From NCBI RefSeq assembly GCF_012184425.1, contig NZ_VTOW01000004.1, forward strand, positions 62,001-126,000: a stretch of 64,000 nucleotides of DNA, given 5' to 3'. This DNA is from Candidatus Manganitrophus noduliformans (GTDB lineage Bacteria; Nitrospirota; Nitrospiria; SBBL01; Manganitrophaceae). The translations under genes were made by a program, and so were the position numbers. Below, one piece after another: positions 29,196 to 47,117 of the stretch. The notes under the pieces were generated by a model. That model searched no databases, was not told where the DNA came from, and saw only the letters and a list, made by a program, of their open reading frames with translations. Position 1 is the stretch's first letter. The number at the start of each line of letters is the position of its first letter.

Positions 29196-29200
29196 AATCT

Positions 29201-29280
29201 GGGGCTGGGGGCCAGGGGTCAGGGGTCGGTAAGAAGATGTTTGTTCGCCGATCCCCGGCCCCCGACCCCCGGCCCCCTGA
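29201..29280. repeat. G-rich heptad inverted repeat, no cargo (atpG/atpD gap)
   Basis: The left arm (29201-29229) is four tandem GGGGYCR-like 7-mers plus a G. The right arm (about 29248-29280) is the same array on the other strand. The 18-nt centre (29230-29247) has no coding capacity. About 24 of 29 arm positions pair. Each arm contains four G-runs and could fold into a G-quadruplex. Confidence 0.8.
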
Positions 29281-30708
<1,428 letters not shown>

Positions 30709-30712
30709 ACCA

Positions 30713-31151
30713 GGGGCCGGGGGCCAGGTGTCGGGGGCCGGAGAGAACAGATGCCGGTCAACAGATCGGTCAATAGTTTTCGAGATCTCCGAGTTTGTCA
30801 GCTCGGAATCAATCTTGTGGAGCAGGTTTATCTGCTGACGGCACGTTTTCCTAAAGAAGAAATATACGGTTTGACGAGTCAGATTCAACGGGCTGCTGTC
30901 TCGGTCCCCTCGAATATTGCAGAGGGACATACCCGCGAGCACAGGAAAGAATATCTACAGCATCTCTCTATTGCTCAAGCTTCTTTGGCCGAATTGGAAA
31001 CCCAATTGGAAATTTCGGCGCGTCTTAAATATCTTACATCGGATGAATTCAATCAGATTACAGAAAATATCAAATCATTGGGCAGACAACTTTACGCACT
31101 ACGAAATGCTTTAGGAGATAAACCGGCCCCTGGCCCCCGGCCCCCGGCCCC
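30713..31151 (+). mobile_element. Heptad-armed element carrying a four-helix-bundle gene
   Basis: The left arm (30713-30741) and right arm (31123-31151) are 29-bp inverted repeats matching at 25 of 29 positions. Each is built of four GGGGYCR heptads. Between them lies one complete gene of the 23S rRNA intervening-sequence protein family. The element fills the atpD/atpC gap without interrupting either gene. It has the same arms as the cargo-free copies at 29201 and 47019, which suggests one mobile family. No transposase is present and no target duplication is obvious. Confidence 0.7.
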
Positions 31152-31155
31152 TTAA
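30751..31155 (+). CDS. Four-helix-bundle protein, 23S rRNA intervening-sequence (S23/IVP) family
   Basis: A 134-residue basic helical protein with the family signature FPKEEIYGLTSQIQRAAVS, then PSNIAEG and a HLSIAQASLAELETQL helix. Members were first found inside intervening sequences of 23S rRNA genes and resemble the Avd accessory protein of diversity-generating retroelements; their biochemical role is unsettled. Here it sits between atpD and atpC. Its last ten or so residues (KPAPGPRPPAP) and stop are encoded by the right repeat arm itself, showing that the gene and repeat travel together. Confidence 0.85.
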   Translation: MPVNRSVNSFRDLRVCQLGINLVEQVYLLTARFPKEEIYGLTSQIQRAAVSVPSNIAEGHTREHRKEYLQHLSIAQASLAELETQLEISARLKYLTSDEFNQITENIKSLGRQLYALRNALGDKPAPGPRPPAP

Positions 31156-31159
31156 AATT

Positions 31160-31444
31160 ATGGCTGAAAAAACATTTCATCTCACCGTGATTACACCGGA
31201 CCGGGTCTTTTTCGACGGCCCGGTACGATCGATCGTGGCCCCCGGAGGCGACGGAAGCCTCGGGGTCTTGGTCGATCATGCCCCGCTCATCACCACCCTC
31301 CAGACAGGCCGGCTTTCGATGACATCGTCCGAAGGAAAAGTGCAGTCCTTCCTCATCGGTCCCGGCTTCCTCGATATCCTCAAAAACGAGGTCGTTCTCC
31401 TGACCGAATCCGCCAAGGCGGACCATCCGACAAATTTGTCTTAA
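31160..31444 (+). CDS. atpC: ATP synthase F1 subunit epsilon, short form
   Basis: A 94-residue protein that covers only the N-terminal beta-sandwich (FHLTVITPDRVFFDGPVRSI to the GPGFLDILKNEVVLLTE segment). The usual C-terminal helical hairpin of about 45 residues, which inhibits ATP hydrolysis, is missing. A promoter begins eight bases after the stop, so this is not an obvious frameshift. The beta domain should suffice to couple gamma to the c-ring. Confidence 0.88.
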   Translation: MAEKTFHLTVITPDRVFFDGPVRSIVAPGGDGSLGVLVDHAPLITTLQTGRLSMTSSEGKVQSFLIGPGFLDILKNEVVLLTESAKADHPTNLS

Positions 31445-44955: not shown

Positions 44956-46244
44956 CAACGCCTGTAAAAAAACGTCCCCTGCGCGGGACAATCACCGTTC
45001 CCGGGGATAAATCGATCACCCATCGGGCGGTGATCTTCTCGGCGCTGGGGGAGGGGACGAGCGAGGTCATCGGCTATCTTCCTTCCGAGGATTGCGAGCG
45101 GACGATCACCGCCTTTCGGGAGATGGGGATTGCCATCTCCGTCGAGACGGTGAACGGTCTTCCCTCTCTCCATGTGCAAGGGAAAGGGCTCTGGGGACTG
45201 ACGGAGCCGACGGGGGTCATCGACTGCGGCAACTCCGGAACGACGCTGCGGCTTCTGACCGGATTGCTGGCCGGGAAGCCGTTTTTCTCGGTTCTGACGG
45301 GAGATGCCTCCCTTCGGAAACGTCCGATGCGGCGGGTCATCGATCCCCTTCGGAGCATGGGGGCGGAGATCTTCGGCCGATCGGGGGGAAATCTCGCCCC
45401 GCTGGCGATCTCCGGAAAGAAACTGAACGGAATTGATTATCGACTCCCGATCGCAAGCGCCCAGGTCAAGTCGGCGATCCTGCTCGCCGGGCTGACCGCT
45501 TCGGGGGTGACGACCCTCTCCGAGCCGAGCCGGTCGCGCGATCATACCGAACGGATGCTCCGCTCTCTCGGGGTCCGGTTCGAGGAAAACAACGGGCGGC
45601 TTTCCATCGTCGGCGGCTCGTCTTACCCCGGCAAGCGGATCGAAGTCCCGGGGGATCTCTCCTCGGCGGCGTTTTTCCTGGTCGCCGGGGCGATCATCGA
45701 AGGTTCGGAGATCACGATCCGAAAGATCGGGGTCAATCCGACCCGGACCGGTCTCCTGGAAGTATTGAAGGAGATGGGGGCGGAGATCACGGTGACCCCT
45801 CTTGAGCCGATGGGAGACGAACCGGTCGCCGACCTGACCGTCCGTTCCACCTCACTCCACGGGGCAGTGATCGGGGGGGATCTGATTCCCCGCACGATCG
45901 ATGAGTTCCCGATCCTCTGCGTCGCGGCGGCGGCGGCCGAAGGGGAGACGGTGATCCGGGACGCGCAAGAACTACGGGTCAAAGAGAGCGATCGGATCGC
46001 CGCGATGGCCCAGGCGTTGCGGGGAATGGGAATCACGGTGGAGGAGTTCCCCGATGGGATGCGGATCGAAGGGAAGAAAAAGTGGAAGGGAACCTTCTGC
46101 GAGACACATGGAGACCACCGAATCGCCATGTCGATGGCGATCGCCGGTCTTGTCGCCGAGGGGGGAAATGAGATCGACGACGTTGCCTGCATCGACACTT
46201 CTTTCCCGGGATTTTTGGGGTTATTGTCAACGTTGAACGGGTAG
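44952..46244 (+). CDS. aroA: 3-phosphoshikimate 1-carboxyvinyltransferase (EPSP synthase)
   Basis: A 430-residue enzyme that joins PEP and shikimate-3-phosphate. Conserved stretches are PGDKSITHRAVIFSALGEG, the PEP-site motif GNSGTTLRLLTGLLAG and RVKESDRI (here LRVKESDRIAAM). Its stop codon TAG is the second to fourth base of an inverted-repeat element that starts at 46241, so the insertion probably reset the 3' end by a codon or more. Confidence 0.96.
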   Translation: MTTPVKKRPLRGTITVPGDKSITHRAVIFSALGEGTSEVIGYLPSEDCERTITAFREMGIAISVETVNGLPSLHVQGKGLWGLTEPTGVIDCGNSGTTLRLLTGLLAGKPFFSVLTGDASLRKRPMRRVIDPLRSMGAEIFGRSGGNLAPLAISGKKLNGIDYRLPIASAQVKSAILLAGLTASGVTTLSEPSRSRDHTERMLRSLGVRFEENNGRLSIVGGSSYPGKRIEVPGDLSSAAFFLVAGAIIEGSEITIRKIGVNPTRTGLLEVLKEMGAEITVTPLEPMGDEPVADLTVRSTSLHGAVIGGDLIPRTIDEFPILCVAAAAAEGETVIRDAQELRVKESDRIAAMAQALRGMGITVEEFPDGMRIEGKKKWKGTFCETHGDHRIAMSMAIAGLVAEGGNEIDDVACIDTSFPGFLGLLSTLNG

Positions 46245-46333
46245 GGGCGGACCGGTGTGTCCGCCCGCCTTTGTTCACCGTTGTCATCATTCGATTTGGT
46301 AGGATCAGGGCGGACACAGAGGTCCGCCCCTAC
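46241..46333. repeat. Paired inverted repeat (GTAGGGGCGGAC type) in the aroA-cmk gap
   Basis: Two 26-bp arms (46241-46266 and 46308-46333) are inverted copies matching at 24 of 26 positions. Each arm also folds on itself (GGGCGGAC / GTCCGCCC). The 41-bp centre has no gene. The left edge provides the aroA stop and the right edge ends 12 bp before the cmk start. Confidence 0.75.
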
Positions 46334-46345
46334 GAGAGATTGCGC

Positions 46346-47071
46346 GTGAGAAAACTCATTATTGCCATCGACGGTCCGGCGGCGGCCGGAAAGAGCACTG
46401 CGGCGAAGAATTTGGCCAAACGGCTCGGCTATCTCTATCTCGATTCGGGTGCGCTCTATCGCGCCATTGCCTGGAAGCTTCTTCAAGAAAAGATCAATCC
46501 GGAGTCCCAGGAGGAGGTCGAGGCGGCGGCCCAATCAATCGAAATCGAGTTCCGGCTGAAGGGAGAGCAGACCGAGATCTGGGTCGGCGGGATCGATGCC
46601 ACCCCTTCCCTTCGATTGCCGGAAGTGACCCGGGTCTCTTCGATCGCGTCGACCTATCCGGGCGTTCGAAAGAAGCTCCTCTCGATTCAGCGGTCGATCG
46701 GAAGCGGCGGCGGGGTCGTGATGGAAGGACGCGATATCGGCACGGTCGTTTTTCCCGAGGCCGATCTGAAGTTCTATCTTGATGCGACCACCCCGGTCCG
46801 GGGGCTGCGCCGGCACAAAGAGCTCGAGCAGAAGGGGATCCCGTCCGACCTGGAGAAAACGACCCGGGAGATCGAGGAGCGGGATCTCAAAGACAGCCGT
46901 CGGCACGTTGCCCCGTTAAAAAAGAGTGAGGATGCCGTTGTGATCGATTCCACCCCGCTGAACCTGGAGGAGGTGATCGCGCAGATGGTCCAAGAAGTCG
47001 AGAAAAAGTTAAAAATAAGGGGCCAGAGGTCGGGGGCCGGGGGCCGGGGAGAAAGAATCAAAGAATTTTGA
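46346..47071 (+). CDS. cmk: Cytidylate kinase
   Basis: A 241-residue P-loop kinase that phosphorylates CMP and dCMP. The Walker A IAIDGPAAAGKSTAAKNLA, the CMP-site segments YLDSGALYRAIAW and VVMEGRDIGTVVFPEADLKFYL and the lid SRRHVAPLKKSEDAVVID are present. GTG 46346 is taken as start because everything upstream is repeat. The last 17 or so codons and the stop are encoded by the left arm and centre of a G-rich heptad element, giving an atypical Gly/Arg tail. Confidence 0.93.
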   Translation: MRKLIIAIDGPAAAGKSTAAKNLAKRLGYLYLDSGALYRAIAWKLLQEKINPESQEEVEAAAQSIEIEFRLKGEQTEIWVGGIDATPSLRLPEVTRVSSIASTYPGVRKKLLSIQRSIGSGGGVVMEGRDIGTVVFPEADLKFYLDATTPVRGLRRHKELEQKGIPSDLEKTTREIEERDLKDSRRHVAPLKKSEDAVVIDSTPLNLEEVIAQMVQEVEKKLKIRGQRSGAGGRGERIKEF

Positions 47072-47117
47072 ACCTTTTCTTTTTCGACCGGCCCCAAATC
47101 CCCGGCCCCTGACCCCT
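47019..47117. repeat. G-rich heptad inverted repeat, no cargo (cmk/plsC)
   Basis: The left arm (47019-47049) and right arm (47085-47117) are arrays of GGGGYCR-like 7-mers in opposite orientation, matching at about 22 of 29 positions. The 35-bp AT-rich centre contains an A-rich half followed by a T-rich half (GAAAGAATC, CTTTTCTTTTTC). It overlaps the 3' end of cmk and ends 11 bp before plsC. Confidence 0.8.

Follow-up and report, generated by a model that had tools for sequence, protein, structure and literature searches.

Candidatus Manganitrophus noduliformans harbours, within the ATP synthase operon on contig NZ_VTOW01000004.1, a gene of the S23/IVP four-helix-bundle family. The ORF listing gives the sequence order atpD, S23 ORF and atpC at this locus; all coordinates refer to the window, which is the whole stretch of 64,000 nucleotides that was analysed. 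The S23 gene (30751-31155, plus strand) encodes a protein of 134 aa assigned to PF05635 and TIGR02436, and is enclosed by two arms of short tandem repeats with the unit GGGGYCR. The left arm (30713-30740, plus strand) is composed of the four heptads GGGGCCG, GGGGCCA, GGTGTCG and GGGGCCG, the third of which has one mismatch to the unit. The right arm (31124-31151, minus strand) is composed of four inverted heptads, which read GGGGCCG, GGGGCCG, GGGGCCA and GGGGCCG on the minus strand. An earlier note on this DNA had described a complete S23 gene within inverted arms between atpD and atpC, with 25 of 29 arm positions matching; the sequence and the ORFs bear out this arrangement, and a count by eye agrees with the number. 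The C-terminal codons and the stop codon of the gene had both been placed in the right arm. The codons are indeed located there, with the C-terminus ...PAPGPRPPAP as their product, but the TAA stop directly follows the arm. Both neighbours, atpD (29284-30708, plus strand) and atpC (31160-31444, plus strand), are intact according to ORFs and profile matches, as had been proposed for the essential operon. A transposase, also said to be missing, was found neither in the element nor beside it in the ORF listing and the Pfam profile search at the locus, and no match to a known RNA family was obtained with Rfam over 26000-48000 of the window.

The S23 protein of the window matches PF05635 (E-value 2.7e-37), TIGR02436 (4.3e-35) and PF22296, bAvd (1.2e-10). 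PF05635 and PF22296 were the only families detected in the Pfam search of this protein, which revealed no HUH domain and no other nuclease or catalytic domain. The AlphaFold2 model is an all-helical four-helix bundle (pLDDT 91.8). Its structural matches are, best first, 2GSC, 2RLD and then Avd, both alone (4DWL) and in reverse-transcriptase RNPs of diversity-generating retroelements (DGRs; 8UB7 and 8UBE), and the TM-score to chain D of 4DWL is 0.73/0.90. The relationship in fold between S23 and Avd, to which the earlier note had pointed, is supported by this TM-score of about 0.7 and by weak matches to Avd/bAvd profiles; with NF033474, the Avd model of NCBIfam, the protein scores 38.8 bits, under the cut-off of 80. 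The S23 protein XCC0516 is a homopentameric ring, as cited in PMC4990558, and Avd is essential for DGR retrohoming (PMC10053308). The S23 genes of Xanthomonas have a median dN/dS of 0.24, which corresponds to purifying selection, and the protein therefore has some function. S23 proteins possess a mildly positive net charge, which says little on nucleic-acid binding by itself since the median is only +2. Among 50,697 phage records, no S23 match was found. To our knowledge, crystal structures of S23/IVP proteins have existed since 2006, and a function is still lacking.

Two copies of the same arms without cargo had been reported near the S23 gene, and both are present in the window. The copy between atpG and atpD (29201-29276) has a left arm of four heptads (29201-29228, plus strand) and a right arm of inverted heptads (29249-29276, minus strand), and the RNA fold predicted for 29196-29283 is a hairpin with a long stem (-60.0 kcal/mol). 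The copy at 47019-47116 also has a left arm of four heptads (47019-47046, plus strand), and a right arm with two perfect heptads (47103-47116, minus strand) and a degenerate remainder. Seventeen heptad dimers (at most one mismatch) occur in the window versus 1.1 expected, a number reached in none of 100 shuffles. Pattern searches of the whole 5.17-Mb genome found 64 exact GGGGYCR dimers versus 13 for the reversed pattern. An inverted pair, nearly always gene-free, was present in 13 of the 26 GGGGYCR regions that were fetched, while the other 13 have no recognisable second arm. The G-rich arm comes first in all 13 pairs (reverse polarity, 0), and arms in the 26 regions consist mostly of exactly four heptads and never of more. 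The three pairs in the window are all intergenic; a few single arrays elsewhere are apparently located within coding sequence.

Only one of the GGGGYCR pairs, that at atpD-atpC, encloses an S23 gene. GGGGYCR was not detected near the other S23-family matches of this genome (L040-L042). Judged by eye, these matches do possess repeats of their own, such as heptads resembling AAATGGA at L011 and 9-mers at L012. A longer, weakly matching S23-like family is found at L012 and L101, and the short tandem repeats adjoining L012 are apparently 9-mers. The window also possesses a member of a separate REP-like hairpin family at 46241-46333, where GTAGGGGCG forms an inverted pair about 90 bp apart; similar hairpins fill gaps in the related genomes G001 and G005.

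Because a list of every indel between congeners proved too noisy, selected orthologous gaps were compared across syntenic stretches in three congeners. In G000 and G005, the atpD-atpC gap contains GGGGYCR arms and the S23 gene. The gap of G001 contains a gene-free hairpin whose arms are of the ACGAATA type, and there is only a short, unrelated sequence in G002, in G003 and in relatives further away. The earlier note had considered that relatives might carry the gene fixed at this place without arms; it occurs here only with arms (G000 and G005), and the relatives without the gene do not have these arms. The claim that arms and gene form one unit is supported. Where the window has its GGGGYCR hairpin at 47019-47116, the orthologous gap of G005 holds a hairpin of the CGGATTT type, and that of G001 is almost empty from stop to start codon. 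Other GGGGYCR arrays of G005 have no counterpart at orthologous gaps in G000 or G001. With orthologous gaps filled, empty or differently filled, the unit behaves as the mobile element of intergenic gaps that had been suggested. No target-site duplications were definable at the empty sites, where gaps are short and flanks too diverged to place the junctions. In the draft genome G005 (L044/L245, contig C1 near 1785600), the atpD gene beside the S23 element is unlike that of the congeners and falls under the atpD search cut-off. This foreign-looking atpD may be an assembly chimera or a product of recombination.

Most S23 genes of related genomes are flanked by inverted short-repeat arrays whose letters vary, including GGAGTGA, GTGACGA, GATGCAG, GAAGGGT and CAGCNNT. 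In the first survey, an inverted-repeat score of at least 18 was obtained for 90 of 105 S23 genes and, within the same loci, for 20 of 150 control ORFs. When left and right flanks were taken from different elements, 32 of 600 pairings scored this high; since mismatched flanks seldom score, the arms are largely element-specific. In a sample of 192 genes from many phyla, 79 of them from a scan with one genome per species, inverted arms (z of at least 4) were found beside 137 S23 genes (71%) versus 12 of 250 control ORFs (4.8%), and tandem arrays (z of at least 4) beside 134 (70%) versus 17 of 250 (6.8%). One hundred fifty-nine of the 192 genes (83%) have inverted arms, tandem arrays or both, and about 17% have no detectable arms. 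The period of the tandem arrays is 7 in 93 cases, 8 in 31, 9 in six, 10 in three and 6 in one. Loci were picked by protein similarity and not by arms, with one contig-derived set made up of the 80 best hits of a single conserved peptide, and gene calls in the survey are crude ORFs. The earlier note had named an absence of association between heptad arrays and S23 genes as evidence against it, and the survey shows instead a strong association (159/192). An element specific to GGGGYCR was rejected, as S23 lineages possess their own 7- or 8-nt units. In G001 and G004 (L081, L082), the S23 gene with CAGCNNT arms has a complete hairpin on each side and not a single arm.

Arms and S23 proteins diverge together. 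The more alike two S23 proteins are, the more alike are their arms (r 0.39, versus at most 0.066 in permutations), and the unit is held in common by 93-100% of pairs at 70% identity or more, and by 1.7% of pairs at 40-50%. Changes between periods 7 and 8 on the protein tree number 12, versus a mean of 26.9 and a minimum of 20 after shuffling, and seven versus 15.3 in the Nitrospirota set only. Some units are common to related S23 proteins of different phyla: GTGGTTA is found in Pseudomonadota, Bacillota and Acidobacteriota, and both Nitrospirota and KSB1 contain an 8-mer similar to GCACAGAG. Plain co-inheritance of the entire element could equally yield this coupling, which therefore shows a unit of descent and not binding.

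A unit is also most abundant in genomes that own the matching S23 gene, in comparisons that cover few genomes of shared ancestry and ignore phylogeny. In the genus, the two genomes that own a GGGGYCR-armed S23 gene contain 64 and 40 GGGGYCR dimers versus 18, 8, 3 and 2 in the sisters; the 18 belong to G001, although it has no matching S23 gene, and some copies thus occur in sister genomes too. CAGCNNT was predicted to peak in its owners, and was found 74 times in G004 and 25 times in G001 versus 9, 8, 5 and 3 times in the others, with 0 for the reversed control. An independent test was provided by Xanthomonas, which possesses an S23 gene (E-value of the product versus XCC0516/2GSC, 5.4e-55) with GGGAATC-type inverted arms in most species, which sits between accB and accC as read from the flanking protein sequence. 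Genomes that own this gene contain at least 23 copies of the GGGAATC pattern, versus 0, 4, 9, 11, 17 and 28 in six other genomes (p 1e-4, kinship ignored), where an intact accB-accC S23 gene was not found and one of which, G334, has a partial match. A second Xanthomonas S23 gene, with GGGGACC-type arms and located between carA and carB (as read), was seen in four of 35 genomes. Its four owners have the four highest GGGGACC counts of the 35 (18, 19, 9 and 14 versus at most 6). At three loci with this carA-carB gap (L337, L342 and L343), the left GGGGACC arm apparently extends into the C-terminal codons of carA, the end of which seems altered by the element.

S23 genes lie mostly in the direction of their surroundings. 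Among the 136 S23 genes with close neighbours, 115 are in sense and two in antisense between two co-directional genes, versus 292 in sense and 58 in antisense for other genes of three congeners under the same crude calling. This sense orientation fits both an RNA route of copying and selection for read-through expression.

We consider it probable, on balance, that S23 recognises the hairpins formed by its own arms and allows the spread of gene-free hairpins in trans, as a widespread two-component element. One component would be a short hairpin whose inverted arms each contain about four to five tandem repeats of 7 nt, sometimes of 8 nt, and the other an S23 gene inside one such hairpin, where it would stand in for the short spacer that is normally present. 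The S23 protein, whose solved relative is a homopentameric ring, would recognise the arm unit of its own element, and its presence may be needed in trans for gene-free copies to appear in other intergenic gaps, mostly within operons. Copying would proceed via an RNA hairpin, with the catalysis supplied by the host or by another enzyme. Three grounds make us prefer this RNA-hairpin route, namely the fold in common with Avd, the sense orientation of the genes, and the relatives in the intervening sequences (IVS) of 23S rRNA, one of which likewise has tandem heptamers next to its S23 ORF. More tentatively, S23 proteins might represent a new class of mobility factor, namely non-enzymatic pentamers of Avd-related descent, which would attach in register to RNA hairpins made of tandem heptads and pass them on to an enzyme acting in trans, a reverse transcriptase or another, for insertion into operon gaps. 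We regard this wider proposal as possible rather than likely; if true, it would account for the long-known over-abundance of heptameric repeats across the genomes of many bacteria, and also for the IVS elements found in rRNA genes. Points against a role in mobility are that S23 has no recognisable catalytic domain, that armless S23 genes exist, and that some copies occur in sister genomes that do not own the matching gene.

The main rival explanation makes S23 a regulator of the host, a pentameric protein that binds RNA at dispersed sites, namely the heptad hairpins in operon gaps, which would be kept as a post-transcriptional regulon whose spread is rare or historical. We consider it rather unlikely. 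It accords with S23 genes lying in sense within operon gaps, with an accB-accC gene that is conserved through most of Xanthomonas under purifying selection, and with a fold that is that of Avd, which occurs in RNP structures. However, gene-free hairpins are gained and lost at the orthologous gaps of congeners, one gap even containing different units, which is unlike conserved regulatory sites, and the S23 element is found in the unrelated operons atp, acc, car and cas.

That most hairpin copies have no gene, and that S23 has no catalytic domain, would also agree with independent selfish repeats which other machinery spreads and in which S23 is a well-surviving passenger gene. This explanation appears improbable, as the association was reached from S23 genes, across many phyla and with units that differ, both unit and period track the S23 tree, and a unit is commonest where the matching S23 gene is present. 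It is very improbable that the heptads are ordinary slippage-prone simple repeats that form inverted pairs around an S23 gene by accident. Tandem heptads can expand, and some arrays have more than 10 units (a 28-bp scanning frame biases lengths to at least four units), whereas the arms of this genome keep mostly to four heptads without exceeding them, inverted pairs have a fixed polarity (13/13), control ORFs are mostly without arms, and one unit recurs at many unlinked places. Chance and slippage were rejected by the shuffles, the control ORFs and the fixed arm length.

The two-component element that we favour resembles several known systems. As in REPIN-RAYT systems, inverted short hairpins enclose a gene and also occur dispersed outside genes, and hairpin families match gene lineages (PMC3116915, PMC2817692). 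However, RAYTs are Y1 HUH transposases and REP palindromes have 20-40 nt, whereas S23 belongs to a four-helix-bundle family without HUH match and its arms are tandem 7- or 8-mers. The IVS in the 23S rRNA of Coxiella and Leptospira also contain an S23-family ORF between terminal inverted repeats, with a 28-bp stem in Coxiella, where tandem GACAGAT heptamers lie just upstream of the S23p ORF (PMC4990558). In contrast to the element in the atpD-atpC gap of the window, IVS are located inside 23S rRNA and excised by RNase III (PMC4990558), and the arms of S23 elements, unlike theirs, are also dispersed genome-wide without the gene. The DGR protein Avd (4DWL, 8UB7) has a common fold with S23, which matches Avd/bAvd profiles weakly; however, no RT, TR or VR was found beside the S23 gene of the window, whose immediate neighbours are atpD and atpC, and the score is below the cut-off. 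MITEs are likewise short inverted-repeat elements without a gene of their own, but the present hairpins have no known parent transposase, their candidate parent encodes S23, and their arms are tandem heptads. The S23 element may therefore be of a new kind, because the defining features of the nearest families (the RAYT transposase, the rRNA location of IVS, the RT and profile score of Avd) are absent.

Dispersed intergenic arrays of G-rich heptamers have been described as GGGAATC in Xanthomonas, often in convergent pairs, and as GGGGA(T/C)T in Nostoc (PMC4692102). That 2015 study found no general association of the repeats with mobile elements, whereas here such arms flank the accB-accC S23 gene, which is a candidate partner. 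The over-representation of heptameric repeats in the genomes of many bacteria has lacked an explanation (PMC4692102). S23 ORFs in the IVS of 23S rRNA (PMC4990558) and orphan heptamer repeats (PMC4692102) were thus known separately, and among open-licence full texts we found no paper that joins the two. When joined, each gains a partner, and the solved protein XCC0516 and the known repeat GGGAATC make the question directly testable. If the favoured reading is true, it would represent a repeat-spreading system similar to REPIN-RAYT that is built on a non-transposase protein.

Cyanobacterial plasmids also harbour S23 genes, with short tandem arms, seen by eye, in six out of six. On plasmid pANA02 of Anabaena sp. 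90 (L375), an S23 gene with GGTGACA heptad arms (1195-1563) lies within a type I-D CRISPR operon, where its neighbours are cas6 and cas4. An S23 gene has been listed as CRISPR-associated (PMC3936711). The arrangement in Anabaena sp. 90, which is one case, suggests an insertion, and the S23 genes listed as CRISPR-associated may be operon insertions.
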